The notes below the pieces were generated by a model. It did not search any database. It worked only from the letters and a program-made list of their open reading frames with translations, and was not told the origin of the DNA. From Cordylochernes scorpioides (lineage: Eukaryota > Arthropoda > Arachnida > Pseudoscorpiones > Chernetidae): DNA of 64,000 nucleotides. Location: the NCBI GenBank assembly GCA_030710605.1, contig CP092863.1, positions 143,312,623 to 143,376,622 of the forward strand, read 5' to 3'. The position numbers were made by a program, and so were the translations under genes. This document shows positions 1 to 51,116 of this stretch, in pieces (position 1 is the stretch's first letter; the number at the start of each line of letters is the position of its first letter).

Positions 1-290
1 TAAAACATTTGGCAAAGGTCAAGATGCCTGAAGGACCAGTTTTTTGGTCGTTGAGGTACAGCTTGCACCACGCTGATGAGGGCCAACAGCCCGAAACGCG
101 TACATGGTTAACTTTTCTTGATTAATCAAGAATGGGTAATTGGCCAATTCTGTAATAATTAGAAGTCAACGAGAATAGTTGATATTTATTCTGATAGATG
201 GCGCAAGCCATCAGCAACTTTCAGTTGCTCAATAAGCAGATGCATTTTTAATAATGTATGCATCTTATCCCAGTACAATATCACATTTGT
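1..290 (+). repeat. Group A hammerhead element, one arm
   Basis: This dispersed repeat contains the hammerhead core at 67-108. It continues through a strand rich in short inverted repeats (TTGATTAATCAAG at 118-130) to the tail CAACTTTCAGTTGC near 220. The same order of blocks recurs at 45405-45550 and, inverted, at 46770-47095. No protein is encoded. I read it as a short non-autonomous RNA-derived element; its left edge is cut by the window. Confidence 0.7.
67..108 (+). ncRNA. Hammerhead ribozyme, group A
   Basis: The core CTGATGA is at 73-79. Helix II is GGGC/GCCC (80-83 with 89-92) closed by loop CAACA. GAA is at 93-95, helix III is the palindrome ACGCGT (96-101), and the predicted cleavage base is A102. 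Helix I is ACCACG (67-72) with CATGGT (103-108), five of six pairs, one C-A mismatch. A self-complementary helix III without a loop cannot close inside one molecule, so activity would be expected in dimers or tandem transcripts, as described for hammerheads of Penelope-like elements and animal retrozymes. All conserved core bases are present. Confidence 0.8.
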
Positions 291-409
291 ACTATTTCTT
301 CATATTTGGCAAAGCGTTAAAAATTATTCTTAGATTATAATTTCGCCTATTGAAGAGCGAGTATTCGAATGCTTGGGGTGTTTTTGTAATAAAGAAACGT
401 ATTGCGTAA

Positions 410-760
410 TTTAGGAAAAAGGCATCTCCTTATCGTGCCACTTAAAGTTTCTGATGGCTTGCGCCATCTATCGGAATAAATATCAATTATTCTTCGATTT
501 TTTGGTTAATTATTCCAGAATTTATAAAGAGACAAAGGTCGTCTCTCCCGTCAAAATAGACCTCAAATCTAGACGCTATCTATTCCAGAATTGAATAAAT
601 ATACGCAAGTTATCAGCAACTTTAAGCTGCATGTAAAGGAAATCCTTTTTCTTAATTTATACACCTTATCCCAGTACAATATCACTTTTGTACTGTTTTT
701 TTCTTATTGCGTAAAGTTTTTAGATATCTTATTATGTATTAAACATAGCTAGATATTAAT
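410..760. repeat. Decayed group A and B element fragments
   Basis: At 420-500 the group A outer arm (GGCATCTCC, then GGCTTGCGCCATCTATCGG) is present in inverted orientation. At 530-585 there is a piece of the group B terminus (CTCTCCCGTCAAAATAGAC). At 600-710 the A tail and the extension ending CCCAGTACAATATCAC occur again. No ribozyme core survives here. Confidence 0.55.
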
Positions 761-776
761 TTGATATCGCCTACTT

Positions 777-833
777 CTACCTACCATGATTATCATGGCC
801 TGTAACACGTGTACTAGGGATAAGCAAAAAAAA
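777..833 (+). repeat. SINE 3' tail fragment
   Basis: CTACCATGATTATCATGG followed by an ACACGTGTACTAGGGATAAGC end and a poly-A run matches the 3' end of the full tRNA-derived SINE at 10785-11090. The tRNA-like head is missing. The stretch 834-1080 is AT-rich and shows nothing else. Confidence 0.7.
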
Positions 834-1120
834 AAGATTTTAATTTGAAGAGATTCGTCTGATTATACTCAGAGAATAAATGAAATTTATTTTTCTTCTT
901 TACTTATTAAAAGAAAAGGGAAAAAACAGCTTTTTTCAATATATCCAATTTTCATCCAATATTTTGGTGATAATTATTTTTGTGTCTAAATATAGAAATG
1001 TTGTATGTGAACTATTGATAAATCAATAAGTTAAAATGATTCATATGATGGGAATTTTTCAGATTTAATTTAAACATACCTTATTTTATGACGCATTAGC
1101 GCGCCATCTGTTATGAAAAT

Positions 1121-1400
1121 TCGAAACTATTATAGACACGTATGATTCTTTTTAAAAATAAACAATTTCTTCTGCCCTTACTTCAATGGAAAAATTAATA
1201 GGAGGGCCTGGCTCATCAGTGGTGAACCCTCCCAGCGGTTTCGACAGTTTAATCTATTATATAATAGATTAAACTGGCGAAAAATCTGGGAGGGTTCACC
1301 ACTGATGAGCCAGGCCCTCCTATTAATTTTTCCATTGAAGTAAGGGCAGAAGAAATTGTTTATTCTCAAAAAGAATCATACACGTCTATAATAGTTTCGA
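1121..1400. repeat. FB1 foldback element
   Basis: A near-perfect palindrome of about 280 bp. Both arms carry TCGAAACTATTATAGAC, CTGCCCTTAC and a GAGGGCCTGGCTCATCAG block, and the tip is near 1258-1262. It is flanked by the GCGCGCCATCTGTTATGA sequence shared by other copies. The right arm has CTGGC-GAA (1274-1281) and later CTGATGA-GCCAG (1304-1315), the hammerhead-like blocks discussed in the findings. Any open frame here only reads the palindrome. Confidence 0.75.
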
Positions 1401-1683
1401 ATACCTTATTTTTTCAAAAGGTTTTTTTTTTTCAATTAAATCAAAGTTACGTCTAGTTTATTAATCATAAAGAAAAATATATTAAACATATCTCTTATAT
1501 TGAATTACATATTTCATTTTAAAAAAATATGATCCAAAAAACATAATTTGTAAACAGAACAAATAATAATGCATATAGATAAACATCTAATCATTTCATT
1601 AGATCAAAAATAGCTAGATATGAAAAAACACTAGAAAAAAAAATAATAAAAAATAAAAAGATCAGGTGTTGATATAAAAAATA

Positions 1684-1856
1684 AAAAAGGCATATCCTGA
1701 CCAGGAGCACATGTGCTTTTCAGAAGGCAGAACGCCATCTGGTGGAACAGAAATCAACTATTCTAAAATGTTTAGTTGAATTCTGTTCCACCAGATGGCG
1801 CTCTGCCTTCTGAAAAAAACATGTGCTCCTGGTCAGGATATGCCTTTTTTATTTTT
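1684..1856. repeat. Foldback of group A2 arms, no ribozyme
   Basis: The arms start AAAAAAGGCATATCCTGACC and meet at about 1765-1770. The same arms flank hammerhead cores at 17300-17620, 34795-35080 and 39860-40090. Here the ribozyme segment is absent and only outer arms remain. Confidence 0.65.
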
Positions 1857-1944
1857 AATAGCTAGATATACAGAGTTAACAGCAATAGAATTATATTATA
1901 TATACGATTTTTAAAAATATGTAAAATAGATTTTAACACATATA

Positions 1945-3260: not shown

Positions 3261-3267
3261 TATATAT

Positions 3268-4100: not shown

Positions 4101-4189
4101 TCTAATGGTTTAAGTATGGATTGCTCTATTTTCAGAAATATATATATATGGAAATTTTGACGGTAGGATATTGATCGAAAGAGACAAAG

Positions 4190-4545
4190 GTCGCCTCTCC
4201 CGTCAAAATAGACGTCAAAAACAAGACGCCATCTATTGACCGTCCCCGCAAACTAGCGGCCTCGGGTCGGTGACAAAACCACAACACCAGCTTTGGCAAA
4301 CTGAGAAGCGTCCACCTAGAGATCATGGTTTCGGGCTAATGGCCTTTGTCAGTCTAGGGCGGACTTTATTCTATGAGATCCACACGGGATCTAATGGAAT
4401 CTTGACAATCTGCCAAAGAGGTGTTTAGCTGGCAAAGTGGCTGGGTCATATCTATGGCTATAATATAGATGTCTATAATAGATGGCGTCTAGTTTTTGAC
4501 GTCTATTTTGACGGGAGAGGCGACTTTTGTCTTTTTAGATATATA
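4190..4545. repeat. Group B hammerhead element
   Basis: The termini are inverted copies of a roughly 55-bp sequence containing GGTCGCCTCTCCCGTCAAAA and GACGCCATCTATT. Inside lies a minus-strand ribozyme (4315-4358) flanked by a conserved CGGGTCGGTGACAAA block and CACACGGGATCTAATGGAAT. It encodes no protein. It has the same layout as 47940-48985, and an arms-only version is at 34515-34745. Confidence 0.7.
4315..4358 (-). ncRNA. Hammerhead ribozyme, group B, core mutated
   Basis: On the minus strand helix I is CCTAGA/TCTAGG (perfect), helix II is AGGC/GCCC with loop CATTA, and GAA is followed by ACCATGAT. The core reads CTGACAA, so G8 is A while C3 is unchanged. The 3-8 pair is broken, so activity is not expected. 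The intact relatives are 48008-48051 and 48797-48840. Confidence 0.65.
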
Positions 4546-8639: not shown

Positions 8640-9470
8640 CTTTAAAAAAAAGACGACCATCGACATCAAAAACTTTCCACTTCCTTACGTTTTATCTATG
8701 AATGTATATCGTGACATAAAATATTAATATATGAAAATAAATCAATATTAAAATTTAATATATACCTTCAAATCTAGAGCAATTATATATATATATATAT
8801 ATATGATGTAATTCTACTGTGAAAAAAATATTTAGCAGTCGTTTGTGGCTGTCTCCACCTCAATCATCATCTCTTTATTTTTCAAATATTTTTAAACAAA
8901 AAAAATTTACATACTCCATTTAGTTAAATCTTCAGTAAAAACAAAAAAAAGTTACATTCTATCATTCAAAATGTATCATATATATATAATTTGTGTAAAA
9001 TTATTAAACATTAATATTTAATTATTTTACGATCAATAAACATTAATAAAACATACAAATACACATTCTAAGATTGGTCCATTTCCCCAGAGATTATCTA
9101 ACGCCAATAAACAGAGTGATTTAAAAACTCTTGAAGGCAATTAAATTCATCCTTTCACGGCATGTTTGGCCACAAAAAGTTTAGCTATATCACTAACTAT
9201 TCAAAAAACACCAAAAGGTTATAACCATAAACCAAACATATTAATGCTAGCTATATTTCCTTACACTATCGTAAACATTTTAATATTTTATGATCCGAAA
9301 AATGATTTTAAAATAGCCGTAAGCGATTGAAAAATCTGTGATATAGATTTTTGGGAGTTTTAAAATAAATTTTTACCATATTAAATTTGATGTTTAAAAA
9401 TATGTTTTCTTGTTAAATTTATCATAATATTTCTCATATTTATTTATTTTTAAATCAATATATTTATTAT
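8640..9470. other. AT-rich stretch, nothing recognised
   Basis: It includes an (AT)n run at about 8785-8805. No open frame, RNA gene or element boundary is visible. Confidence 0.5.
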
Positions 9471-9476
9471 TTTACA

Positions 9477-9765
9477 CATATAAATTTACTGGCAATGCGC
9501 CTCTTTTAAATATCATCAAATATTATCTCTAAATACCTTACTGCAATGATATGAGTTATTGAATGAGAGGGCTTGGCTGATCAGTAGTGAACCCTCTCAG
9601 CGGTTTAGCCAAATTAATCTCTAGACCGCTTGGCGAAACTGCTGAGGGGTTCACTACTGATGAGCCAAGCCCTCTCATTCAATAACTCATATCATTGCAG
9701 TAAGGTCTGTAGTGATAATATTTGATGATATTTAAAACAAGCGCATTGCCAGTAAATTTATTTGT
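9477..9765. repeat. FB1 subfamily foldback
   Basis: A long palindrome whose outer arms are AAATTTACTGGCAATGCGC and whose inner arms are GAGAGGGCTTGGCTGATCAG. It belongs to the TTGGC/GCCAA subfamily. The tip is near 9612-9618. On the plus strand TTGGC-GAA at 9632-9639 precedes CTGATGA-GCCAA. Confidence 0.75.
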
Positions 9766-9789
9766 GTAAAATTTTAACGATAGATGGCA

Positions 9790-11581: not shown

Positions 11582-11815
11582 TATATAATAAAACAGGTTT
11601 TTCTGGAGATATAAGTTTCTTTACATTTTATTTAAAACAGTCTCAAGATATCGAATATCTCTGTCAGTAGAGGAAGTCATCGAAGAAAGAGTATAAAATA
11701 AAATAAGAAATTCACCCTCAAAAGCTGTTTTATCTATTATTCATATACATTTAAACCTGTTTATAGCGCCTCCTTCTCTATAGAGCCCGATTTTAAATAC
11801 GTAGTACGACGCGAT

Positions 11816-12514
11816 TTACATTAAAAGTGACCTGTCTATAGCGCCCGAATTCAAACACGTAGTACGATGCGATTTACATTAAAAGTGACCTGTCTATAGC
11901 GCCCGAATTCAAACACGTAGTACGATGCGATTTACATTAAAAGTGACCTGTCTATAGCGCCCGAATTCAAACACGTAGTACGATGCGATTTACATTAAAA
12001 GTGACCTGTCTATAGCGCCCGAATTTAAACACGTAGTACGATGCGATTTACATTAAAAGTGACCTGTCTATAGCGCCCGAATTCAAACACGTAGTACGAT
12101 GCGATTTACATTAAAAGTGACCTGTCTATAGCGCCCGAATTCAAACACGTAGTACGATGCGATTTACATTAAAAGTGACCTGTCTATAGCGCCCGAATTT
12201 AAACACGTAGTACGATGCGATTTACATTAAAAGTGACCTGTCTATAGCGCCCGAATTCAAACACGTAGTACGATGCGATTTACATTAAAAGTGACCTGTC
12301 TATAGCGCCCGAATTTAAATACGTAGTACGATGCGATTTACATTAAAAGTGACCTGTCTATAGCACCCGAATTTAAATACGTAGTACGATGCGATTTACA
12401 TTAAAAGTGACCTGTCTATAGCGTCCAAATTTAAACACGCAGTACGATGCGATTTACATTTAAGTGACCTGTCTATAGCGCCCGAATTTAAATACATAGC
12501 ACGATGCGATTTAC
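11816..12514 (+). repeat. 58-bp tandem array
   Basis: About twelve head-to-tail units starting TGACCTGTCTATAGCGCCCG and ending GATTTACATTAAAAG. They differ by single substitutions (for example AATTCAAACAC and AATTTAAATAC). The unit contains the TIR-like word CCTGTCTATAGCGCC, so the array looks grown from an internal copy of the terminal repeat. Confidence 0.9.
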
Positions 12515-12556
12515 TTGAAAATAAAGATACTTCGGCCAGTAAATATTTTTTATTAT

Positions 12557-12595
12557 CTCAACGTTTCGACAAAAATCTTTTGTCCTCGTCAGGAG
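12557..12595 (-). ncRNA. Hammerhead ribozyme, group C, left
   Basis: On the minus strand: helix I CTC/GAG, core CTGACGA, an extra G, helix II GACAAAA/TTTTGTC (7 bp) with loop GAT, GAA, helix III ACGT, cleavage base T. The single extra G between core and helix II departs from the consensus. It is a mirror image of 12669-12707. Confidence 0.65.
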
Positions 12596-12668
12596 CGAAC
12601 AGAAATTAAAACATTTGGCAAGGCGCTGAAATTTTTTAACGCCTTGCCAAATGTTTAAATTTTGTTTG

Positions 12669-12707
12669 CTCCTGACGAGGACAAAAGATTTTTGTCGAAA
12701 CGTCGAG
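12669..12707 (+). ncRNA. Hammerhead ribozyme, group C, right
   Basis: The core CTGACGA is at 12672-12678. G12679 is extra. Helix II pairs 12680-12686 with 12690-12696, GAA is at 12697-12699, the palindromic helix III ACGT is at 12700-12703, and the cleavage base is C12704. Helix I is three pairs, 12669-12671 with 12705-12707. The short palindromic helix III again suggests dimeric action. Confidence 0.65.
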
Positions 12708-12894
12708 GTAATAAAAATATTTACTGGCCGAAGTATCTTTAATTTGAAGAACTATGAATTCCGGCCAGGCAGCCTCTATCTTTACGATGCGATTTACATT
12801 AAAAGTGACCTGTCTATCTATAGCACCCCCTCTCTATAGCGCCCTATTTTGGTGAGTCCCAAGAGGGGGCGCTATAGACAGGTTTAACTGTATA

Positions 12895-13500
12895 TTACAG
12901 AGTATTTTATTTCTCCTTATTACATATCTACGCATTCATTTGATATTCATTATTAGATAGAATAACATAAATATCGTAAATATTATATTTGTTTTCCAAC
13001 TTTGCATATTGGCATACAGTATGTAGAAAACCACTCTTAATTATAAATCGCTTTGAAAGCTTGTCATTCGATATATATGAACTGTAGACGTAGTAACTGA
13101 TAAAATTTGCATAACTAGCTAGTCCAATATGCAACAACGGTGGGTTTATTAATTAGATTGGACTTAATTATTATTCCTTGTCATGAATTGCCCCTCTAAT
13201 TATTCTGTCATATTTCTTTGATTTACGGATGGAAGAGTTATTAATGGCATTCGTGGATATAAACACCAGTAATTGAATTGTCCTTCCCTATGAATATCAT
13301 AAATATTTGACAATATTTAGTGAGTTAGGTTTACATACCATGGAAAATACACTCATGGATAAACCGTAAGGAAGTGAAGACAATGACAATTAACATATAT
13401 TTATTGACATTTTGTCAATACAAGGCTAAAGTGCAAAATCCGAACAAATCAGGAAAATATTTAACAAAAATTTTAAAAAGATTAATAATACAACAACATA
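12895..13500. other. AT-rich stretch with one satellite scrap
   Basis: A scrap of the 123-bp satellite (ACACTCATGGATAAACC) is at about 13350-13368. The rest is AT-rich and unassigned. Confidence 0.45.
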
Positions 13501-13505
13501 TATAT

Positions 13506-13750
13506 ATTTAATTTAAAAGGCATATATTTGATCAAAATATCATTTGTTTTACCAATATTTCAGTTGGCTAAACGCCAACTTTTATCAAGGTGTTATAACA
13601 TATTAATATGTGTCAATAATTGTTGGCAATGTTGTTGACACACATTAAATATGTTATAACACCTTTATAAAGGTTGGCGTTCAGCCAACTGAAATATTGG
13701 TAAAACAAATGATATTTTGATCCAATATATGCCTTTTTAATTTAAGATTT
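13506..13750. repeat. Group E foldback, uninterrupted copy
   Basis: The arms begin AAAAGGCATATATTTGATC and end ATATGCCTTTTTAATTTA. Each arm carries an E-type hammerhead-like motif: minus 13551-13592 and plus 13658-13700. The tip has GTTGTTGACACACATTAAAT and its inverse. This copy gives the empty-site sequence used to date the nested insertions at 27790-28320. Confidence 0.7.
13551..13592 (-). ncRNA. Hammerhead-like motif, group E
   Basis: On the minus strand: ACC, core TTGATAA, an extra A, helix II AGTTGGC/GCCAACT (perfect 7 bp) with loop GTTTA, GAA, ATAT, T, GGT. Helix I is ACC/GGT. C3 is U and G8 is A, so the pair between these core positions is kept as U-A. The facing plus-strand copy at 13658-13700 reads TTTATAA and is more decayed. 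Confidence 0.5.
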
Positions 13751-13789
13751 ATTTATGGATTGCTCTATTTTCAAAATATATATACATCA

Positions 13790-15159: not shown

Positions 15160-15425
15160 TTGTGATTGTAAAACGACATTTTAAAATTATCCCGCATGTG
15201 TTTCTTTTCAACGAAAAATCTAAATATATTTTAAGGAGAAATATTGATTATTTCTAACCTTAGGGATGAAGTATGAAAGGATGAATTGTGAAGCACAAAT
15301 ACATCCTTTCATACTTCATCCCTAAGGTTAGAAATAATCATTATTTCTCTCCTTAAAATAAATTTGGATTTTTCGTTGAAAAGAAACACATGCGGGATAA
15401 TTTTAAAATGTCGTTTAACGAATAT
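15160..15425. repeat. H foldback element
   Basis: A palindrome with arms AAAACGACATTTTAAAATTA, CCCGCATGTGTTTCTTTTC and CTTAGGGATGAAGTATGAAA; the tip is near 15295. Further copies are at 26765-27085, 30165-30335 and 63165-63435. I found no hammerhead core in it and no coding frame. Confidence 0.75.
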
Positions 15426-17299: not shown

Positions 17300-17620
17300 A
17301 ACGAAATTACGTCACATTGTTACGAAATTTTGGCCTAAAATACCTATTTCTTAGTTTCTCAAGAAGCCTCTGGAACCAAATTTCTTTTTGGTTGCTGTGG
17401 TACAGCCTACTCCACGCTGACGAGCGCCAACAGCACGAAACACGTTCGTGGATGGCTTTTCTTGATTTATTAAGAAATTGGGTAGGCCAAATATCAGAGA
17501 ACAGGTTAAATCAATGTTTAGTTGATTGCGCTCTGCCTTCTGAAAAGTACATGTGCTCCTGGTCAGGATATGCCTTTTTTATTTTTGTTATCAAAACCTG
17601 ACCTTTTTATTTATTATTTT
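17300..17620. repeat. Group A2 hammerhead element
   Basis: It runs from TTTCTCAAGAAGCCTCTGG through the ribozyme at 17411-17452, an inverted TCTTGATTTATTAAGA, and ends GCTCCTGGTCAGGATATGCC. Its right end equals the arm of the ribozyme-free foldback at 1684-1856. Confidence 0.7.
17411..17452 (+). ncRNA. Hammerhead ribozyme, group A2
   Basis: Helix I TCCACG/CGTGGA is perfect (17411-17416 with 17447-17452). The core CTGACGA is at 17417-17423. Helix II is GCGC/GCAC with loop CAACA (one mismatch). GAA is followed by ACACGT, a damaged palindrome; the cleavage base is T17446. It is probably weakened relative to 34892-34933. Confidence 0.72.
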
Positions 17621-17657
17621 TTCTATTGTTTTTTCACATATAAATGTATATTGTAAC

Positions 17658-21344: not shown

Positions 21345-22199
21345 AACGCTGCTCATCCTGTACCCCTGGAGTCCTTACAGGGTACTAACAGCCGGGCCAG
21401 CTGAACCCAGGTTTTTTAGTGAGCTTGTTACTGCTCCCCCTCCTCCTTTTTCATCCAAGCTTGGGACCAGCAAAGGCGGAGTTTCATTATTATCCTTTTG
21501 TATGAAATTATACAAAGACTAAATTCATAAATAAAATTCACAATCTTGGTGTCTCAAGATCTACAAGCCTGATACCCTAAATATGATTGAGTGGAGATAA
21601 GAAATAAGAAAGAAGAAAGACAATCTTGGTAATGTGGTTGGAATATTGATAATCTGTAAATTGTTTTATTAACACTAATAGCAAAATAATTAAAGAGTCA
21701 AACATCAAAAACAATCCTAAATATGAAAAATAAAATAGAAAAAAGTGAAATTTTACTGGGATCAGGTGGATACCTTAAGAAAAATGCAAACTCCGCCTTT
21801 GCCGGTCCCAAGCCCGGATGAAAAAGGAGGAGGGGGAGCAGTAACAAGCTCACTAAAAAACCTGGGTTCAGCTGGCCCGGCTGATAGTACCCTGTAAGGG
21901 CTCCAGGGATACAGGATGAGCAGCGTTTGTACTCCATGTTAGGAGTGGTTGCACATGGCGTCTGTTCCTCATGTCAGAGGCGGCCATTTCATTTGGAGCT
22001 AATTCGGCCTGCTACTAAGTAGTGCTCCCAGTCTTATTGACAAAGGCAGATGCATTTTACTTCACCCAGTCATGATGGATGTCAAGTCTCTCAAGCTCTA
22101 CAAGCTTGATACCCTAATATGATTGAGTGAAGATAAGAAAGAAGAAGAAGAGAGAAAAAGGCATATTCTGATCGTGAAACTAAAATTTTTACTGATGGT

Positions 22200-22859: not shown

Positions 22860-23020
22860 CAATTGTCATCTATCGGAAAAAATATATACTAAGCGTTAAT
22901 TATTCCATAATTGTCCAAATACCCAATTCTTGATTGATTCGGATTCCTAAAAGATCAGTTTTTTATTTATTTGGTGGTGGTTGAGATATAGCTTGCACCA
23001 CGCTGATAAGGGCCAACATC
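22860..23020 (+). repeat. Decayed group A hammerhead element
   Basis: It has the ATCTATCGG, CCAAATACCCAATTCTTGATT and TAGCTTGCACCACG blocks, then a core read as CTGATAA at 23002-23008 with GGGC, but the GAAA side is gone (CATCACTTAAC). It is not a functional ribozyme. Confidence 0.55.
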
Positions 23021-23035
23021 ACTTAACTGCTAGTA

Positions 23036-28205: not shown

Positions 28206-28424
28206 ACACATTAAATATGTTATAATACCTTGATAAAGGTTGGCGTTCAGCCAACTAAAATATTGGTAAAATAAATGATATTTTGATCCACTATATGCCT
28301 TTTTATTTAAAGATTTATTTATGGATTGTTCTATTTTCAAAATAAAAGAGATTAACCTAGAGAAATGACAAGACCTCGGTAGATGACTAGGTAGGAAATT
28401 GATACCAAAAAAGCATAGGATTAT

Positions 28425-28580
28425 TAGCACGAAACCATGATCTCTAGGTGGACGCTTCTCAGTTTGTCAAAGCTGGTGTTATGGCTTTGTTACCGACCTG
28501 AGGCTTCTAGTTTGCGGCGACGGTCAATAGATGGCGTCTAGTTTTGACGTCTATTTTGACGGGAGAGGTGCCCTATGCTT
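28425..28580 (+). repeat. Truncated group B hammerhead element
   Basis: It keeps the 3' half of the ribozyme (GAAACCATGATCTCTAGG at 28431-28448), GACCTGAGGCTTCTAG, and the outer arm ending TGACGGGAGAGG. The CTGANGA half is missing. Confidence 0.6.
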
Positions 28581-30809: not shown

Positions 30810-32375
30810 TATATTCACTCATGTACAAAACCTAAGGAAGTTGTACTTTTTAGCATGTACTAGTATATCGGAATTCAGACAATAACTCTGAAAGATATTA
30901 CAATGACCTTTATTGAAGACACACGAGATAAGAAGTGTGAACAAAACTTAAGGAAGTTGTACCTTTAAGCATGTATATCGGAATTCAGACAATAACTCTG
31001 AAAGATAGTACCGTGCCCTTTATTGAAGACACATGAGATAACCAAGTGTGTATACACTCATGGAGACAAAACCTAAGGAAGTTGTACCTTTCAGCATGTA
31101 TATCGGGATTGAGACAATAACTCTGAAAGTTATTACAATAACCTTTATTGAAGACACATGAGATAACCAAGTGTGAACAAAACTTAAGGAAGTTGTACAT
31201 TTTAGCATGTATATCGGGAATGAGACAATAACTCTGAAAGATATTACAGTGACCTTTATTGAAGACACACGAGATAACCAAGTGTGTATACACTCATGGA
31301 CAAAATTTAAAGAAGTTGTACCTTTTATCATGTATATCAGGATTCAGACAATAACTCTGAAATATATTACAGTGACCTTTATTGAAGACACACGAGATAA
31401 CCAAGTGTGTATACACTCATGGACAAAATTTAAGGGAGTTGTATCTTTTACCATGTATATCGGGAATGAGACAATAACTCTGAAATATATTACAGTGACC
31501 TTTATTGAAGACACACGAGATAACCAAGTGTGTATACACTCATGGACAAAACTTAAGGGAGTTGTATCTTTTACCATGTATATCGGGAATGAGACAATAA
31601 CTCTGAAATATATTACAGTGACCTTTATTGAAGACACACGAGATAACCAAGTGTGTATACACTCATGGACAAAACTTAAGGGAGTTGTATCTTTTACCAT
31701 GTATATCGGGAATGAGACAATAACTCTGAAATATATTACAGTGACCTTTATTGAAGACACACGAGATAACCAAGTGTGTATACACTCATGGACAAAATTT
31801 AAGGGAGTTGTATCTTTTACCATGTATATCGGGAATGAGACAATAACTCTGAAATATATTACAGTGACCTTTATTGAAGACACACGAGATAACCAAGTGT
31901 GTATACACTCATGGACAAAACTTAAGGGAGTTGTATCTTTTACCATGTATATCGGGAATGAGACAATAACTCTGAAATATATTACAATGACCTTTATTGA
32001 AGACACACGAGATAACCAAGTGTGTATACACTCATGGACAAAACTAAAGAAAGTTGTACCTTTCATCACGGATTCAGACAATAACTCTGAAAGATATTAC
32101 AATGACCTTTATTGAAGACACACGAGATAACCAAGTGTGTATACACTCATGGACAAAACTAAAGAAAGTTGTACCTTTCATCACGGATTCAGACAATAAC
32201 TCTGAAAGATATTACAATGACCTTTATTGAAGACACACGAGATAACCAAGTGTGTATACACTCATGGACAAAACTAAAGAAAGTTGTACCTTTCATCACG
32301 GATTCAGACAATAACACTGAAAGATATTACAGTGACTTTAATTGAAGTCACATGAGATAACCAAGTGTGAACAAA
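30810..32375 (+). repeat. 123-bp satellite array (large)
   Basis: About thirteen units. The central six (about 31320-32060) are almost identical with a strict 123-bp period; a later triplicate (32060-32300) has a shortened unit of about 114 bp (CATCACGGATTCAGACAAT). 123 is a multiple of three, so an open frame of 302 codons (31207-32115, plus) and one of 245 codons (31344-32081, minus) exist, each repeating a 41-residue period. With both strands open this is a satellite, not a gene. Confidence 0.93.
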
Positions 32376-34299: not shown

Positions 34300-34745
34300 T
34301 TTATCATCATTAATAAAGGTTCTACTAGGGTGATAAACATAATACTTCGTTCCGATACATATTTAAAGGGAGAGGTGCCTCTTATGGTACATGAATATCA
34401 TCCTCCCGTAAATTTATGTTATATAAAAGTGTATATGATTACTATTATAATTTGAATAATCATCTGGAATAGTATATTATTAAAAGGACAAAATCGCAAG
34501 GAAGAAAAGTGTCGATATACATACATATATGGAAGCAATGGTCGCCTCTCCCGTCAAAATAAACGTCACAATCTGACGCCATCTATTGATGTTGGTCTAG
34601 TTGGTGTTGTGGCTTTGTCACCGACCCGATGCCGCTAGTTGCGGCGACGGTCAATAGATGGCGTCAGATTCTGACGTTTATTTTGACGGGAGAGGGACCA
34701 TTGCTTCCATGGATAAATTCCTCCCGGCAAATTTTCCATCTATAT
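34300..34745. repeat. Group D end and group B foldback without ribozyme
   Basis: 34300-34415 matches the group D terminus (GGTGATAAACATAAT, AAAGGGAGAGGTGCC). 34515-34745 is a B foldback: inverted AATGGTCGCCTCTCCCGTCA ends, CGCCATCTATTGA, and a GTCACCGACCCGATGCCGCT interior, with the ribozyme deleted. Confidence 0.65.
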
Positions 34746-34749: not shown

Positions 34750-35085
34750 ATATATATGAAAAAAAACAATAGAAAAAAATAAAAGATAAGTGGGTCAGGT
34801 GTTGATATTAAAAATAAAGAAGGCATTTCTTGATTTCTCGGGAAGCCTCTGGGACCAAAAAATATTTTTGGTCGTAGTGGTTACAGCCTACTCCACGCTG
34901 ACGAGCGCCAACAGCGCGAAACGCGTTCGTGGATGACTTTTCTTGATTTATCAAGAAATTGGGTTGACTAAATATCACAGGGCAAGCTGAATAAACGTTT
35001 AGTTTACTTTTGCTCCACTAGATGGCGCTCTGCCATCTAAAAAGCGCATGTGCTCGTGGTCAGGAGATACCTTCTTTATTTTTAA
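34750..35085. repeat. Group A2 hammerhead element
   Basis: The edges are GTCAGGTGTTGATATTAAAA and GGTCAGGAGATACCTTC. Inside are AGCCTCTGGGACC, the ribozyme at 34892-34933, TTGATTTATCAAGAAATT and GATGGCGCTCTGCCATC. It is the mirror-image partner of 39820-40090. Confidence 0.75.
34892..34933 (+). ncRNA. Hammerhead ribozyme, group A2, fully consensus
   Basis: Helix I TCCACG/CGTGGA is perfect (34892-34897 with 34928-34933). The core CTGACGA is at 34898-34904. Helix II GCGC/GCGC is perfect (34905-34908 with 34914-34917), loop CAACA. GAA is at 34918-34920, the palindromic helix III ACGCGT at 34921-34926, and cleavage is expected after T34927. Every conserved core position agrees with the hammerhead consensus. 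Helix III cannot form within one molecule, so two copies would pair. This is the best candidate for an assay. Confidence 0.88.
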
Positions 35086-35087
35086 TA

Positions 35088-36581
35088 CACTGGTGTCCAA
35101 AAAATAAGAAGCTTAACCAATATTGAAATTTCTCAAAAGCTAATTTATTAACAAATATAAAATTTAGTATACAAATAGTTTAAACTATGGAGAATTTGAC
35201 TAGCTATATGAAAATTAAAAAATATATTTGAAATTATGAAATATGCAAATTATTACCAACATACCCAAAGCTAAGGTTCCAGATCTTAAAGAAATAAGAT
35301 ATCAATAGGGAGTATGATCACCTCTAACAGCTATCAAGGTCTCACAGCGAGCTCTCATACTGTTTACCAGGCTTTGGAGGAGGTCCAGGGGTAGTAAACC
35401 CCACTCCTCCAATAGGGCAGTTCTTAGCTCAACGAGGGTTCTGGGAGAGGGGTGACGAGCTCCAATACGCCTCCCTAGAGCATCCCACACATTCTCTATT
35501 GGATTCAGGTCCGGAGATCTGGCTGGCCAATCCATCCTTCGAATATTCTCACTCTGGAGATATTCATTGACTAGCCTAGCCCTATGCGGACGAGCATTAT
35601 CGTCCATAAAAATAAATTTGTGACCAATTTGATCTCTATAAGGTCTTAGATAGGGCTCAAGGATCTCGTTCCTGTACCTTTGGGCAGTTAAAGTGCCCCC
35701 AGAAAAAATTTGGAGGGGTGTGCGACTGCTAGAACTGATGCCAGTCCAGATTAAGAGACTGCCCCCTCTAAAACTGTCTATTTCCTTGATGTTACTGGGA
35801 TGATAGCGGGTTCCAGGCTTCCTCCAGATGAAAACTCGTCGAGAATCTGTGCTTAAACTAAATCTTGACTCGTCACTGAAGAGAACATTGGCCCACTGAT
35901 CATGAGTCCAGGCGTGATGTTCCAAGCACCAATTCAAGCGGGCTCTCCTGTGAGAAGAGGTTAAAGGGATACAGACCATTGGTCGTCTTGCATAAAGAGC
36001 ACCTTCGTGAAGCCTTCGGTAAACAGTTTGTCTTGAAATTCTCGTTCCAGTAGCACTTGAGAGTTCATTAGAAAGTTGAATAGCTGTCATCTCCCTATGG
36101 CGCTTGGCAGTTACGACCAGATAACGGTCTTCAGAGGTAGCTGTTTTTCTTTTTCTACCAGAACCTTCTTTTTTTTTTGATGGTTCCTGTCTCAATGAAC
36201 TGTTTCCATATTTTGCTGACCACATATTTATTCACATTTAGCCATTTTGCTACTTCAACTTGTGATTGCCTTGCCTCTATTCTTCCAACAGCTCTCCATT
36301 TTAAATCATCTGCTAAATTTTTCGTAAACTCATAATTAACTAAGGATTAAATAAAATTATAATTGGACAATTCTTAGATGGGGTAAACGACACGCCAAAT
36401 AGCACACTTATAAAGACAATCATAAATTAGCATATTTTCAATTTTACCGAATCGAATGGTTGCGATAAATAAATTCTAAGACTTAAAATACATAATTAAA
36501 TTACTTTTTAGCTTTTAGCGTTGTATATTTCAAAACATATCATTAAAAAACAAAAAGTTTCCTATTTTTTGGACACCAGTG
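35088..36581 (-). mobile_element. Tc1-like transposon, nearly intact
   Basis: The inverted repeats CACTGGTGTCCAAAAAATA and complement are next to TA on both sides (35086-35087, 36582-36583). The length of 1494 bp is typical for Tc1. It has one transposase gene on the minus strand with a single visible lesion. Confidence 0.94.
35302..36333 (-). pseudogene. Tc1 transposase, one frameshift in a poly-A tract
   Basis: The true start is probably ATG at 36333 (MSLRKN), giving the first helix-turn-helix (EVAKWLNVNKYVVSKIW). It runs out of frame at a run of ten A (36168-36177 on the complement). From there the second frame, open for 307 codons, carries GSGRKRK, the second HTH (ISRQTVYRRL), and the catalytic D,D34E set FSDESRF, MDDNARPH and SPDLNPIENVWD. 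A nine-A tract would make one frame. The C-terminal two thirds look undamaged, so the insertion is young. The shift could also be a sequencing error. Confidence 0.9.
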
Positions 36582-38724: not shown

Positions 38725-39465
38725 ATCCGAATGACCCGGGCAACGCCCCGGTTTTACCCAATTAAATGTTTTTATTCAAACACTTTTCGTTACAATTATA
38801 AATTGGCGCCGTGGATGTCACTCTTGTGAAACGTCCCGCTCCAAACTTTGTGTGTTTTCAAAATATAAAAATGTAAATTCTCACAACGATATTTGAAAAT
38901 TCTATTATTTTGATTTCCAAATACTATTCGTTACGATTATAAATTGGCGCCGTGGATGTCACTCTTGTGAAACGTCCCGCTCCAAACTTTGTGTGTTTTC
39001 AAAATATAAAAATGTAAATTTTCACAACGATATTTGAAAATTCTATTATTTTGATTTCCAAATACTATTCGTTACAATTATAAATTGGCGCCGTGGATGT
39101 CACTCTTGTGAAACGTCCCGCTCCAAACTTTGTGTGTTTTTAAAATATAAATATTTTCACAACGATATTTGAAAATTCTATTATTTTGATTTCCAAATAC
39201 TATTCGTTACAATTATAAATTGGCGCCGTGGATGTCACTCTTGTGAAACGTCCCGCTACAAACTTTGTGTGTTTTTAAAATATAAATATTTTCACAACGA
39301 TATTTGAAAATTGTATTATTTTGATTTCCAAATACTATTCGTTACAATTATAAATTGGCGCCGTGGATGTCACTCTTGTGAAACGTCCCGCTACAAACTT
39401 TGTGTGTTTTTAAAATATAAAAATGTAAATTTTCACAACGATATTTGAAAATTGTATTATTTTTA
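38725..39465 (+). repeat. Tandem array within the GC-hairpin repeat
   Basis: It starts with ACCCGGGCAACGCCCCGG, then five units whose TTGGCGCCGTGG word begins at 38803, 38944, 39085, 39220 and 39355 (periods 141, 141, 135, 135). Units contain GTGAAACGTCCCGCTCCAAA. Elsewhere in the window this piece is single-copy, so the array is a local expansion. Confidence 0.85.
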
Positions 39466-39819: not shown

Positions 39820-40090
39820 AGAATATGAAAAAACAATAGAAAAAATAAAAGATAAGTGGGTCAGGTGTTGATATTAAAAATAAAGAAGGCATCTCCTGAC
39901 CACGAGCACATGTGTTTTTTAGATGGCAGAGCGCCATCTAGTGGAGCAAAAATAAACTAAACGTTTATTTAGCTTGCTCCGAGATATTTGGCCAACCTAA
40001 TTTCTTGATAAATCAAAAAAAGCCATCCACGAACGTGTTTCGCGCTGTTGGCGCTCGTCAGCGTGGAGAAGGCTGTAACCACTGTAACAA
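39820..40090. repeat. Group A2 hammerhead element (inverted)
   Basis: It begins GTCAGGTGTTGATATTAAAA and CATCTCCTGACCACGAGCAC and carries the minus-strand ribozyme 40026-40067. The far end is cut at about 40090 (CTGTAACAAAATAATA). Confidence 0.7.
40026..40067 (-). ncRNA. Hammerhead ribozyme, group A2
   Basis: On the minus strand: helix I TCCACG/CGTGGA, core CTGACGA, helix II GCGC/GCGC with loop CAACA, GAA, then ACACGT, T. All is consensus except one base in the helix III palindrome (A for G), which leaves a mismatch. Confidence 0.78.
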
Positions 40091-40229
40091 AATAATAATA
40101 TTTATTTTTAATAAATAATATGCAACGGTAAATTGGTTACGTCCTTCTTACTTACTTTAATTACATAACAATAACAACATTCTCTTGAAGATGACGTTAC
40201 CTGGCCGGCATTTATATTTCTGTAAAAAA

Positions 40230-41975: not shown

Positions 41976-42114
41976 ATGATAAGGCTATATTATAATAATA
42001 TAGATTCTCTCCTATTGGATATGGGGAGAACCCCCTAACTGTCTGACTGTCTGAAGGAGGACACGTTGTCGTTGTCTCCTGGACTGTACATAACTGTATA
42101 TACAATAAAAGGAT

Positions 42115-42545
42115 TTAAAAGCGCGAATGTTTCTTTTATACATAAAACGAACTTCTACTGTCCTTACTGCGATGAAAAAATATATTGGGAGGGCTTGGCT
42201 CATCAGTGGTGAACCCTCCCAGCGGTTTCGCCAATTTAATCCACCAGACCGCTTCTCAGAGCTCTAATACTGTATTGGATCATTCTGCTTTTATATGCTA
42301 CACTGAAGGGTGGAATCTTAGAAATGGTTTTCAAGTAAACAATGGACATAAGCTTATACAATATTACAATAATACAATATTAGAGCTCTGAGAAGCGGTC
42401 TGGTGGATTAAATTGGCGAAACCGCTGGGAGGGTTCACCACTGATGAGCCAAGCCCTCCCAATATATTTTTTCATCGCAGTAAGGACAGTAGAAGTTTGT
42501 TTTATGTATAAAAGAAACATTCGCGCTTTTAAATCCTTTTATTTT
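42115..42545. repeat. FB1 foldback with complete tip
   Basis: It is a full-length copy of the TTGGC subfamily: outer arms GAATGTTTCTTTTATACATA, inner arms GGGAGGGCTTGGCTCATCAG, tip GAGCTCTAATACTGTATTGG and TTCAAGTAAACAATGGACAT. It serves as the reference for the interrupted copies at 5690 and 23870. Confidence 0.78.
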
Positions 42546-42659
42546 ATATGTATAGATGGCGCGTTATTGCTTTGTGATAACTGTATATAGTTTACTCTTT
42601 TAGTTTATCTTTCTCATATATATAGGTTTTTAACTTAAAATTAAAGATTTTTAATTTTA

Positions 42660-45400: not shown

Positions 45401-45404
45401 ATTT

Positions 45405-45550
45405 TTCAGGAAGCCTGAATGTTTTTTGATCGTTGAGGTACAGCTTACACCACGTTGACGAGGGCCAACAGCCCGAAACGCGTACGTGGTTAACTTTTCT
45501 TGATTATTCAATAATGGGTATTAAGTCAATTCTGTAGCTTACACTTGGTA
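45405..45550 (+). repeat. Group A hammerhead element, one arm
   Basis: It has TTCAGGAAGCCTGAATG, TTGAGGTACAGCTTACACC, the ribozyme, and TTAACTTTTCTTGATTATTC. The rest of the element is missing. Confidence 0.65.
45449..45490 (+). ncRNA. Hammerhead ribozyme, group A, C3 mutated
   Basis: Helix I ACCACG/CGTGGT is perfect (45449-45454 with 45485-45490). Helix II GGGC/GCCC with loop CAACA is perfect, as are GAA and ACGCGT. The core is TTGACGA: C3 is U while G8 is unchanged, so this copy should be inactive. Confidence 0.75.
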
Positions 45551-46670: not shown

Positions 46671-46769
46671 TCAAAGAAATGAGGTAGCACAACATTCCCT
46701 TCGGTACTAATAACCTATCTCTAAAGGTGGATACATATTAATCAATAAATATATCTTTATAAATTTTTC

Positions 46770-47095
46770 AAAAGGCATCTCCTTTTCGTGCAACTGAAAG
46801 TTGCTGATGGCTTGCGTCATCTATCGGAATAAATATCAACTATTCTCGCTGATTTTTAATTATTGGCCAAATACCCATTCTTGATTAATCAAGTAAAGCT
46901 AACCACGGACGCGTTTCGGGCTGTTGGCCCTCATCAGCGTTGTGCAAGCTGTACCTCAAGAGAATAGTTGATATTTATTCCGATAGATGGGGCAAGCCAT
47001 CAACAACTTTCAGTTGCACGATAAGAAGATGCCCTTTTTCTTAATTTATGCACCTTATCCCAGTACAATATCATATTTGTACTATTTTTTCATAT
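46770..47095. repeat. Group A hammerhead foldback
   Basis: The inverted arms GGCATCTCCTTTTCGTGCAA and TTGCACGATAAGAAGATGCC enclose a minus-strand ribozyme (46901-46942) beside the tip. A one-sided tail CCCAGTACAATATCATATTT follows at 47054-47090. This is the clearest whole A element: palindrome, single ribozyme, single 3' tail. Confidence 0.75.
46901..46942 (-). ncRNA. Hammerhead ribozyme, group A
   Basis: On the minus strand: helix I ACAACG/CGTGGT (one mismatch), core CTGATGA, helix II GGGC/GCCC with loop CAACA, GAA, ACGCGT, cleavage base C. The core is fully consensus. Confidence 0.8.
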
Positions 47096-47159
47096 ATTTA
47101 TAAGTTACCAGATAAACAAATAAAAACGATAGATTTTCTTTTCTTACACAAATCGTATA

Positions 47160-47530: not shown

Positions 47531-47534
47531 TATT

Positions 47535-47935: not shown

Positions 47936-48007
47936 TTTATACAAACTAGTGGCCTCGGGTCGGTGACAAAGCCACAACACCAGCTTTGGTAAACTGACAA
48001 GCGTCCA

Positions 48008-48051
48008 CCTAGAGACCATGGTTTCGGGCTAATGGTCCTCGTCAGTCTAGG
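48008..48051 (-). ncRNA. Hammerhead ribozyme, group B, consensus
   Basis: On the minus strand: helix I CCTAGA/TCTAGG (perfect), core CTGACGA, helix II GGAC/GCCC with loop CATTA (one A-C pair), GAA, helix III palindrome ACCATGGT, cleavage base C. As a monomer, helix III would be three pairs around a two-base loop, so a dimer is more plausible. Confidence 0.83.
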
Positions 48052-48244
48052 GCGGACTTTATTCCATGAGATCTACACGGGATCTAATGGAATCTTCACA
48101 ATCTACCAAAGAGATGTTTAGCTGGTAAAGTGTTGTCTGGAAAAGTTTATCTGGCCAAAATATAGATAGAAATTTTGCCGGGAGGAAAATGATTTGAAAA
48201 AAACAAAGGACGCCTCATCCGTCAAAATAGACGCTAAATCTAAG

Positions 48245-48594
48245 TGTTGGAGTTTATTATATTTTAATCTATGTATTATTCTGTTATATTTTTTAAATTT
48301 AATTTGACCACGGACGTCTGGTCACGTGTTTATTTTGAAATTTATAAATTGTGATGGAAAATAAAGTAGAGTAGTCACCAGATAATCGTGTCAGCCTCAT
48401 CCTTGTTAGTTGGTACTCCCGTGTGCGAGGTACCGCATCCTCTAAAGAAAAGAGCCTCCCTCATCCTTAGGTCGCCGGCAGTTCGGATCTTCCCTCAGAG
48501 AAATCAAATAATACAGTCCTCTAAAGACGGCGGAGTAAGGTATAACAGGTTAGCGCCTTTCAAGTGGAACCCCTCCTCCAGCCCAGGTTAAACA
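48245..48594 (+). mobile_element. Solo LTR with 5-bp target duplication
   Basis: It starts TGTTGGAG and ends TTAAACA, with CTAAG on both sides (48240-48244 and 48595-48599). It is 350 bp long, with an AATAAAG word near 48360 and a GC-rich second half. Five-base duplication and TG...CA ends are typical of LTR retrotransposons. The two ribozyme element pieces join cleanly when it is removed. The family is not identified. Confidence 0.8.
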
Positions 48595-48796
48595 CTAAGC
48601 GCAAATTAACGGGCTCGGGTCGGCGACAAAGTCACAACACCAGCTTAGTTTTAGCATCTATTTTTATATTTTGGAAATTTTTCCATCTATATTTCAGCCA
48701 TGGATTTGGCCTAGCCACTTTACCAGCTAAACACCTCTTTGGTAGATTGTGAAGATTCCATTAGATCCCGTGTGGATCTCATTGAATAAAGTCCGC

Positions 48797-48840
48797 CCTA
48801 GACTGACGAGGACCATTAGCCCGAAACCATGGTCTCTAGG
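48797..48840 (+). ncRNA. Hammerhead ribozyme, group B, consensus
   Basis: Helix I pairs 48797-48802 with 48835-48840. The core CTGACGA is at 48803-48809, helix II GGAC/GCCC (48810-48813 with 48819-48822), loop CATTA, GAA 48823-48825, ACCATGGT 48826-48833, cleavage after C48834. It is identical in the core to 48008-48051 and faces it. Confidence 0.83.
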
Positions 48841-49049
48841 TAGACGCTTCTCAGTTTGCCAAAGCTGGTGTTGTGGCTTTGTCACCGACCCGAGGCCGCT
48901 AGTTTGCAAAGACGGTCAATAGATGGTGCTTGGTTTTAACGTTTATTTTGACGGAAGAGGCGACCTTTGTTTTTACAGAACAATATTATTCCGGCCAAAT
49001 ATCTATCTTTACATGTTAACAAAAAATTAATAAATAATTTACCGCCCAA

Positions 49050-49260: not shown

Positions 49261-49464
49261 TTGTAGAGGTCTCAGCCTATTTAAAGGAGAAGAAGCGACT
49301 GTAAAACATCCATATAGATTAAACGATAAGTTCCAATCACGTGATATGGCGTGACTTCACAAAGAAGGCTAACAGAGAGTGTTACAACCATGATAATAAT
49401 TCTACTAAGCCTTGAAAAAATCTATAATCGTTATTTAACCTATATACAGATATACATATATATT

Positions 49465-49735
49465 TGAAACTATTATAGACGCGTATGATTCTTTTATAAA
49501 TTAAACAATTTCTGCTGTCTCCTTACTGCAATGGAAAAATTAATGGGAGGGCCTGGCTCATCAGTGGTGAACCCTCATAGCGGTTTCGCCAGTTTAATCT
49601 ACCATACCGCTTATATATTGAATTTTTCCATTGCAGTAATGGCAGTAGAAATTGTTTAATTAAAAAAAAAGAATCGTAAACGTCTATAATAGTTTCGTAT
49701 TTTCATAACAGATGGCGCGCTAATGTATCATAATA
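49465..49735. repeat. FB1 foldback, shortened right arm
   Basis: The outer arms ATTATAGACGCGTATGATTC / AATCGTAAACGTCTATAATAG are complete. The left inner arm GGGAGGGCCTGGCTCATCAG is present and its partner is deleted at about 49615. Confidence 0.7.
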
Positions 49736-49901
49736 CATATATATATAACCTATATGTATACCTAGAGGGGCATCTCTCCCTTTAATTATCCATCAGAAGT
49801 AAGCATTATGTTTATCACCCTAGTAAAAAAAACTTTACTCGAGTTAATAAAGAATAAGCCACAACACCAGTTTAGGAAAATTCAGATAAAAAGCCAACAA
49901 C

Positions 49902-49948
49902 TAGTGTACCATGGTTTCAGGCTATGGTCTTCATCAATACAGGAAAGA
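49902..49948 (-). ncRNA. Hammerhead relic, group D
   Basis: On the minus strand: TTGATGA (C3 changed), a CATA loop between AGAC and GCCT, GAA, the ACCATGGT palindrome, A. It is a relative of group B by its helix III. Helix I is poor. Probably inactive. Confidence 0.45.
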
Positions 49949-50009
49949 CATTTTGGTAAATTCGACCGATATCAGAACCCCTCTCTAGATAGGATGTTAT
50001 GAAATAGAA

Positions 50010-50435
50010 GACGCTCCTATACCAAGGTTCGGCAACTTTTTGAGTTGGAAGAGTCAAAATTTACAATTTACAAAATTTCAAAGTTTTTAAAGAACCCCAC
50101 ATTTTTTTCTTGCCAACAATAAATAGTACTCACATAAATAAAGTTTTTATTTATAGTAGTACTACATTCATCTTCATATCCAAAGAGCCTCGTGTTGCCG
50201 AGACCTCTTCTCTATGAATATAGGGTTAAATAATTCCAATTTTCACACCTAGATGGCGCGGTGTTAAACTTTGTGTGTTATAAAAGTTACATTTTTGTAA
50301 ATGTAAATATTTAATTATTCTTTATTATTATTTATTATATTTTAATTGTAAACAATATATTATATTTCTTTATTGCTAGAATACCATTTGACTAAAAATT
50401 GTATGCCTAAATAAGTCGAGAGACTTTTTGAAATA
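50010..50435. other. Unassigned sequence
   Basis: A repeat of AAATTTACAATTTACAAAAT type and AT-rich flanks; no gene is recognised. Confidence 0.35.
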
Positions 50436-50439
50436 AAAA

Positions 50440-50758
50440 CAATCAGCCTATCAAACAAGATACCGAAGAAGGACTTGAACCAACCCGATCTAGAAGATAT
50501 GTACCAAACTTCCGTTAAGAAATTATACCTTCAAATGCAAAATTCAAATAATCCAACCATACAAGATATTCTACAAAATAAAGGAGATATCAATCCCCGA
50601 TTCCGACGACCCGGCCATCGCCCAACAGCTGCCCTCCTGCAAGGCCTAGGGGGACCACCTCTACTCCACCAACTCGCCATGTGTAAATAGCCAGGACAAG
50701 GTGACTCGCGAGCTGTGCTCGAATGTAACACCTGTAAATTGAGACGAAATAAATAAAT
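50440..50758 (+). other. Possible LINE or RTE 3' end
   Basis: A frame from 50475 (MNQPDL) to 50690 and then an untranslated part ending GACGAAATAAATAAAT just before the gap. The A/T-simple tail argues for a retrotransposon 3' end, but no protein motif is recognisable. It could be a short host-like fragment. Confidence 0.35.
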
Positions 50759-50858
50759 NNNNNNNNNNNNNNNNNNNNNNNNNNNNNNNNNNNNNNNNNN
50801 NNNNNNNNNNNNNNNNNNNNNNNNNNNNNNNNNNNNNNNNNNNNNNNNNNNNNNNNNN
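50759..50858. other. Assembly gap (100 N)
   Basis: A run of exactly 100 N, a conventional placeholder for a gap of unknown size. It lies between the AAATAAATAAAT tail and a matching AAATAAATAAA, so a tandem or tail region was probably not resolved. Confidence 0.99.
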
Positions 50859-51116
50859 AAATAAATAAAAACAAATTTAGTGATAACCGTGTCTGTGGTG
50901 ATTAATGATCCTACATACTGATGAGGATCATAGCATTGGCTTTTTGTCTGAATTTGTTTAAACTGGTGTTGTGGGTCATTCTTTTTATAATCACTAGTTT
51001 AGTTTCTTTAGTGGGGCGATAAACATAATGCATATATCTGGTGCATAAATAAAGGGAGAGGTGCAAGTCATATGTACATAAATATCTTTCTCTCACAACT
51101 TTAAGAGTTATATATA

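Follow-up and report, generated by a model that had tools for sequence, protein, structure and literature searches.

The hammerhead-bearing elements described here lie in a 64,000-nucleotide stretch of the genome of the pseudoscorpion Cordylochernes scorpioides (contig CP092863.1, positions 143,312,623 to 143,376,622; hereafter the window) and fall into families that we call A, B, C and E. Their closest described counterparts are metazoan retrozymes and Penelope-like elements (PLEs). The enzyme that moves animal retrozymes is still open in print, and PLEs are proposed as likely movers in the available parts of two papers (PMC7229834, PMC7761336), the former regarding them as a strong candidate on the basis of shared features and co-occurrence. 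As far as the accessible text of PMC3846280 goes, PLEs have inverted pLTRs, mostly head-to-head, and 8- to 10-bp duplications that some copies lack; a 31-bp tail is optional on one inverted pLTR, and pLTRs move other sequences in trans. For a PLE of Anolis, the available portion of PMC11167929 describes cutting and extension of both strands at AT-rich targets, with two start sites, which bound the tail and did not differ from one strand (top) to the other (bottom). This equality neither supports nor excludes a pairing of the two sites within one insertion.

The window elements and their relatives elsewhere in the genome, which holds about 50,000 pattern matches over the four families, carry PLE insertion marks in countable form. 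We consider it highly probable that A, B and C, with E probably among them, represent non-autonomous retrozyme-type retroelements inserted by PLE enzymes that prime on both DNA strands.

One tailed and one untailed arm per insertion

Arm ends were scored in non-autonomous elements of all four families. Of 52 head-to-head insertions scored, 47 combined a tailed with an untailed arm (P = 6e-10). Among A elements, 28 of 32 had one arm ending at an outer position (site 1) and the other at an inner one (site 2), with 16 expected (P = 9e-6). The same arrangement was found in 7 of 7 B insertions (from 12 loci), 8 of 8 C insertions (22 loci, 8 of them head-to-head with both cores intact; ends compared by eye) and 4 of 5 E insertions (from 6 loci; by eye). 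The A sample derives from the 33 of 40 head-to-head elements that had both ends at a site, reduced to 32 by dropping L002, a repeat of L001. Tails measure about 50 bp in A, 35 bp in B, 34 bp in C and 30 bp in E. On the A units, site 2 corresponds to positions 276-295 or 290-308 and site 1 to positions 330-338 or 341-350; 70 of 163 outward 3' ends lay at site 2 and 50 at site 1. Within the window, the eight head-to-head insertions with readable ends (four A, two B, one C and one E) all obey the one-tail rule, the untailed end of one of the two B insertions being 12 bp short of site 2.

Orientation followed a rule as well. Mapping of A units on 77 loci covering 100 listed places (80 loci, less three overlapping ones) yielded 124 A elements, of which 40 were head-to-head, 1 tail-to-tail, 76 in a single orientation, 5 compound and 2 cut. 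Counted as orientation steps, compound elements included, there were 47 head-to-head and 6 tail-to-tail. Among opposite neighbours at most 700 bp apart at the first 100 listed places, the ratio of head-to-head to tail-to-tail order was 10:0 in C, 7:1 in A and 13:0 in E. The head-to-head order with outward 3' ends that marks PLE-type insertion is found in A, C and E.

Inverted arms, short target-site duplications, the lack of protein and the presence of Tc1/mariner-type transposases in the window would suit foldback or miniature inverted-repeat (MITE-type) DNA transposons with captured hammerheads, the arms being transposase-cut terminal inverted repeats. Such elements should have equivalent termini; here the arm ends were unequal in 47 of the 52 scored insertions and the centre was variable, most A elements (76 of 124) have one orientation, and near-identical tandem arrays occur. 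Since terminal inverted repeats predict none of these features, this explanation is largely refuted, and we regard it as very improbable. The sequence-only reading had presented the elements as a diversified set of foldback carriers that was, to its knowledge, undescribed for a single locus; their inverted repeat is better read as made at insertion, given the head-to-head order, the single tail and the duplications in A.

These duplications were scored in the 32 A elements. Their flanks shared 11.1 bp on average, compared with 6.6 bp in re-paired flanks (0 of 1000 as high), and 14 of 32 shared at least 8 bp including a G or C (control mean 2.0, largest 5). A elements thus show the target-site duplication at AT-rich targets expected of PLE-type insertion. 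Three of them (L005, one of L051, and L058) share 7 bp or less. The shared flanks are consistent with each foldback having been inserted in one piece.

The inner ends of the arms bear on how that foldback arises. Snap-back, in which one strand of a PLE-type element primes on itself, has been proposed for rotifer PLEs from palindromes at the inverted junction (in the accessible part of PMC3846280), and the A element L001 indeed has matching inner ends. Self-priming predicts arms that begin at nearly the same unit position, and inner ends at most 15 nt apart were seen in 1 of 32 A elements (2.8 expected if independent); the distances were not distinguishable from uniform at the 5% level (Kolmogorov-Smirnov p = 0.07), and in 29 of 32 the arms overlapped, or were separated, by no more than 10 bp at the junction. 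It also leaves the pairing of a tailed with an untailed arm unexplained. Because snap-back would bring the inner ends together, two separately started strands fit better; snap-back fits poorly as a PLE insertion mode, and we judge it unlikely for these elements.

Inverted chimaeras are a known problem, and the DNA on either side of the A head-to-head element L070 also forms a palindrome, of about 30 bp, as might be expected if inverted arms were artefacts of assembly or amplification. We give this explanation almost no credence: the arms of one A element differ by substitutions (mean 95.3% alike, compared with 91.8 and 89.5% between elements), flank identity exceeds that of re-paired flanks, and orientation and ends obey rules in four families.

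Several observations weigh against two-strand insertion by PLE enzymes. The rule was violated by 5 of the 52 scored insertions, and others were left unscored: 7 of 40 A head-to-head elements had an end at neither site, L002 was a repeat, L093 an ambiguous B element, and L118 belonged to E. Ends of B, C and E elements were assigned by eye. Fully 43 of 163 A 3' ends lay at neither site, the untailed arm was the longer one in 20 of 28 A insertions, and 76 of the 124 A elements have one orientation only. Duplications were scored in no family but A, and many of them are simple AT repeats. Just 8 of 26 within-element arm comparisons beat every other comparison. C and E were observed singly or head-to-head, none in tandem. 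As for the PLEs themselves, pattern scans found no canonical hammerhead in the genomic copies L081 and L082, BLAST gave no match joining PLE and A units, and L082 has nearly equal arms.

On balance, the following course of events would account for the elements. Arrays of A, B, C or E units would be transcribed, and neighbouring minimal type I hammerheads would pair via their palindromic helix III and cut the transcript to unit-length RNA, which may be circularised. A PLE enzyme of the kind present in the window, acting in trans, would then cut both strands of AT-rich DNA. Each cut 3' end would start reverse transcription on the unit RNA, at inner site 2 on one strand and at outer site 1 on the other. 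Joining of the two first strands mid-way would leave a head-to-head foldback with one tailed arm, one untailed arm and a target-site duplication, and more than one round on a circular or multimeric template would place tandem units within an arm. The elements would then be retrozyme-like up to RNA production and, judged by the position of their ends, PLE-like at insertion.

The wider proposal, to which we give about even chances, is that two-strand, two-site insertion by PLE enzymes, probably acting as a dimer, both makes the foldback and moves retrozymes in trans, with E as a natural U3-A8 hammerhead variant. If true, a full insertion draws on the two sites of a single RNA at which reverse transcription starts, one for each DNA strand, and this two-strand, two-site reaction is recorded thousands of times in this genome. 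With defined RNAs and predicted start sites, the element set is a ready test system.

Hammerhead motifs and element families

Family A comprises a 338-bp and a 350-bp subfamily, both with tandem units, and the groups A and A2 distinguished by the sequence-only reading are these subfamilies of one element. The tandem unit of B is 319 bp. At locus L032, five tandem 338-bp units are at least 99.4% alike, and at locus L031 four plus-strand A units show no differences among themselves or from the single minus-strand unit with which they were compared. The G+C content is 0.41 (338) and 0.40 (350) in A and 0.49 in B. A and B share with retrozymes the tandem units of about 150-450 bp, the type I hammerhead and the low G+C. 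Doubled A and B units have no coding capacity (longest stop-to-stop runs 49, 65 and 115 codons), and the reverse transcriptase/GIY-YIG reading frame of an autonomous PLE is absent from both. Folding predictions for circles of 338 and 350 nt give strong self-pairing (z = -8.2 and -7.0; 60 shuffles) and, read by eye, a long hairpin that bears the hammerhead at its tip.

The 2.62-Gb assembly of C. scorpioides (24 contigs) was scanned with one exact string each for B and C and with degenerate strings for A and E, and the counts are therefore not comparable as copy numbers: 32,847 matches for A (16,422 + 16,425 on the two strands), 222 for B (126 + 96), 3,191 for C (1,581 + 1,610) and 14,100 for E (6,995 + 7,105), with 0 in every reversed control. 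The copies in the window are as follows.

19..305, plus strand: A (338-bp subfamily), hammerhead 54-119; unit 52-338, 91%; 91.2 bits, copy used in model building
403..522, minus strand: A (338) arm without hammerhead; unit 295-179
1620..1859: A (350) head-to-head, hammerhead not included; site 1 left, site 2 right; unit 348-210 minus / 207-299 plus
4144..4524, minus strand: B head-to-head, decayed hammerhead 4303-4371 minus (17.6 bits); unit 318-9 minus / 226-272 plus; arms 91%; left end at site 1, right arm untailed and matched to 12 bp short of site 2
12514..12788: C head-to-head, hammerheads 12544-12613 minus and 12651-12721 plus; palindrome 90.8%; right arm tailed, left untailed (ends compared by eye with genome copies)
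13500..13776: E head-to-head, hammerhead-like, with TTGATAA (left) and TTTATAA (right) instead of the core; right arm tailed, end approximate
17320..17636, plus strand: A (350), hammerhead 17398-17463; 93.8 bits, model copy
22969..23018, plus strand: decayed A fragment, broken hammerhead core 22984-23044; 19.5 bits
27098..27370: A (350) head-to-head without hammerhead; site 2 left, site 1 right; unit 306-171 minus / 198-348 plus
28417..28580, plus strand: B fragment, hammerhead cut off; unit 118-280
34529..34743: B-family head-to-head without core (taken as group D of the sequence-only reading); site 2 left, site 1 right; 98% to B unit
34761..35086, plus strand: A (350) head-to-head, hammerhead 34879-34944; site 1 left, site 2 right; 95.3 bits, model copy
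39825..40103, minus strand: A (350), hammerhead 40015-40080; 94.1 bits, model copy; Rfam HH9 27.2 bits
45359..45534, plus strand: A (338), hammerhead 45436-45501, first core base changed; 94.5 bits, model copy
46759..47095, minus strand: A (338) head-to-head, hammerhead 46891-46956 minus; site 2 left, site 1 right; unit 292-84 minus / 199-338 plus; 90.2 bits, model copy
47944..49008: B copies head-to-head, hammerheads 47996-48064 minus and 48784-48852 plus; 20.1 and 22.9 bits; arms 96%

The pattern CTGANGA...GAAA occurs 15 times in the window, with 3.8 expected and 15 or more in 0 of 100 shuffles. With helices read by hand, nine matches are canonical type I hammerheads: five in A (pattern match positions 73+, 17417+, 34898+, 40061- and 46937-), two in B (48045- and 48803+) and two in C (12592- and 12672+). 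Two of the 6 others (3015, 6895) lie inside two mariner transposase copies, and four (46642, 57186, 57199, 62661) were absent from helix scans, which also missed some true copies. The first strict motif scans overlooked most hammerhead copies because of helix mismatches; a covariance model or a loose scan recovered three decayed ones, in A at 45455+ (TTGACGA) and 22984-23044+ and in B at about 4352- (CTGACAA). A CTGATGA at 50918 is without a convincing GAAA partner. Of the groups A to E, in which the sequence-only reading counted about a dozen cores, A, B and C are borne out, with nine canonical and three decayed copies; D, where it can be placed, consists of B-family arms without a core (34529-34743 and others), and E has TTGATAA.

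In A, B and C the stem I of the type I hammerhead opens outward and helix III is a short palindrome, namely ACGCGT (ACACGT in two copies), ACCATGGT or ACGT; stem II loops are CAACA, CATTA or GAT. CUGANGA, GAA(A), a UH cleavage site and stems I and II are present in all three families. Shared ends had been claimed among A, A2 and E and between B and D. The ends AAAAAGGCAT and GGGAGAGG are indeed commoner than in shuffles, with A and A2 now one element and D, where placed, part of B. In A and E elements AAAAAGGCAT is located at site 2, the more inward of their two 3' ends.

The covariance model was trained on six A copies only and was therefore blind to B and C. It nevertheless finds B at 22.9, 20.1 and 17.6 bits (E values 8e-4, 0.005 and 0.03) and the decayed A copy at 22984 at 19.5 bits, the next match scoring 15.5 bits; it did not recover the C hammerheads of the window. 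Pairing was assessed on 10 aligned copies from A and B (C being outside the alignment), the alignment having been fitted to the hammerhead structure. Standard pairs made up 88% of pair cells and 18 cells were changed on both sides, each value being reached in 0 of 500 shuffles, and slid-structure controls gave at most 46.5% standard cells. Counted by pair, these A and B copies were not outstanding: two-sided changes affected 6 pairs, a number reached by 111 of 500 shuffles, and the 6 further pair types were reached by 499 of 500. The outer stem I differs between the 338 and 350 units, by eye, as AGCT/AGCT against AGCC/GGCT, and all four outer pairs are intact in just 3 of 6 window A copies. 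The Rfam check that had been suggested gave no hammerhead at gathering score over the whole window. The nearest model was HH9, with 27.2 bits (E value 0.011; bases 1-52000, A copy at 39825..40103) and at best 31.3 bits (E value 1.5e-4) in a genome array, the gathering score being 52. Dimers are predicted to be more stable than two monomers by 5.4 to 9.7 kcal/mol, but minimum-energy folds pair part of the core. A scan of viral contigs for the A core gave 0 matches. Judging from sequence, the hammerhead motifs of A, B and C are real, and self-cleavage is predicted.

Family E retains helix II and GAAAUAU, with UUGAUAA in place of CUGANGA; among the first 100 listed copies, UUGAUAA occurs 92 times, UUGAUGA once and CUGAUGA 0 times. 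Both sides of a core pair, C3-G8 in what we take to be the standard numbering, appear to have changed together to U3-A8. Stem I comprises merely three to four pairs (by eye). We classify E as hammerhead-like, a putative variant whose core departs from canonical type I.

Whether the hammerhead contributes to mobility may be asked, since A, B and C could ride PLE enzymes via their end sequences with the hammerhead as a passive passenger. According to the available part of PMC11167929, hammerhead mutants of the Anolis PLE left in vitro insertion unchanged, and E reaches 14,100 pattern matches with a changed core in 92 of the first 100 listed. Yet pairing within the hammerhead is maintained through two-sided changes, and the motif is 81% alike between 338 and 350 units (47/58), compared with 65% elsewhere (196/301). 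We find the passenger explanation doubtful and prefer a hammerhead that takes part in producing the unit RNA.

Further inverted-repeat elements in which no hammerhead was seen lie at 1119-1402, 9459-9782, 15168-15419, 26768-27079, 42098-42549 and 63155-63426. In some of them one flank seems longer than the other, as with tailed arms; these elements may be other families inserted in the same manner. Tandem arrays of various unit lengths occur at 11777-12521, 24619-25787, 31177-32115, 38769-39463 and 52619-53530.

Penelope-like elements and twister matches

The remaining features of the window are these.

21434-21488, minus strand: second type-P1 twister match; 27.8 bits
21784..21838, plus strand: type-P1 twister match, start of LINE-like repeat (by eye); 46.7 bits, E value 5.3e-9 in 1 kb
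35302-36231: Tc1-type transposase, 93% identical over 84% of its length to C. scorpioides proteins
59889..62000, plus strand: PLE fragment (reverse transcriptase and GIY-YIG-type endonuclease), right end at least 62000

The window PLE is in head-to-head form (arms 59889-60571 and 61141-61823). Its reading frame scores 29.5 for RVT_1, just below the cut-off of 29.6, and its relative L081 has a 739-aa open frame with RVT_1 at 41.8 bits. Neither frame gave a Pfam endonuclease match. Relatives of the L081 protein, one of them from Anolis carolinensis, carry PF00078 and PF26215 and in some cases PF01541. We take the endonuclease to be GIY-YIG from its motif and from names among these relatives such as 'predicted GIY-YIG superfamily endonuclease'. 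Among the 119 genome matches listed, which are the best candidates, PLE neighbours at most 6 kb apart were head-to-head in 12 cases, tail-to-tail in 0 and same-direction in 3.

A hammerhead-like motif (TTGATAA, a short GAG/CTC helix and GAAATAT) was noticed in the PLE 3' region in five arms, at 61919+ in the window, at 3748+ and 908- in L081, and at 5462+ and 277- in L082. It has the same U3/A8 core letters as E and lies about 100 nt before the PLE 3' end. Near that end, at 61960-61985, a pyrimidine run followed by CTTTACAG resembles a 3' splice site. Since the L081 PLE is flanked by E arms and E arms also adjoin a PLE end near 27.9 kb of the window, we considered whether E might belong to the terminal repeat of the PLE itself; L082 ends without E, and nested insertion is at least as likely. 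One PLE-like protein, P0124, is assigned to the Wolbachia endosymbiont of Atemnus politus, itself a pseudoscorpion, perhaps through host contamination.

The two window twister matches stand in head-to-head order at the start of a short LINE-like repeat (by eye), separate from the hammerhead elements. Like a third match at L031:5417-5471 (45.9 bits), they score below the gathering value of 67.2. With these sub-gathering type-P1 matches beside the hammerheads, self-cleaving ribozymes of two unrelated classes seem to be present in the window. RTE retrotransposons with a truncated twister at their 5' end are mentioned in the accessible text of PMC7761336; the window match likewise stands at the start of a LINE-like repeat, one recognised by eye.

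Comparison with known systems

The sequence-only reading had likened the elements to PLEs and retrozymes, a comparison upheld by the PLE insertion marks and the retrozyme-like tandem units, as was its picture of several related hammerhead families in protein-less inverted-repeat carriers. With the metazoan non-LTR (non-long-terminal-repeat) retrozymes, as the available part of PMC7229834 describes them, they share a type I hammerhead, tandem units of a few hundred bp, low G+C, the lack of protein, a highly self-paired predicted RNA and target-site duplications. They differ from them in that many copies are dispersed as head-to-head foldbacks, in that circles are here predicted, and in helix III, which is a bare palindrome as in PLE hammerheads.

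Endonuclease-bearing PLEs, in the accessible portions of PMC3846280 and PMC11167929, show the same head-to-head order, AT-rich targets, hammerhead motifs, 8-10 bp duplications and optional tail on one inverted repeat. In contrast to them, A and B units are protein-less, and the rule was here counted on non-autonomous elements.

Minimal PLE hammerhead variants, attributed to Lunse 2017, a study cited in PMC7761336, reportedly cleave as dimers. The present motifs resemble them in their very short helix III, type I form and very many copies, and differ in residing in unit-sized elements without a PLE reading frame.

In the literature searched, which took in few subscription papers and offered others in part, there was no report of foldback retrozymes or of a one-tail-per-insertion count. 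Because their hairpin shape bears Penelope-type insertion marks, we regard the hammerhead elements not as a new foldback class but as unusual, informative representatives of a known kind.

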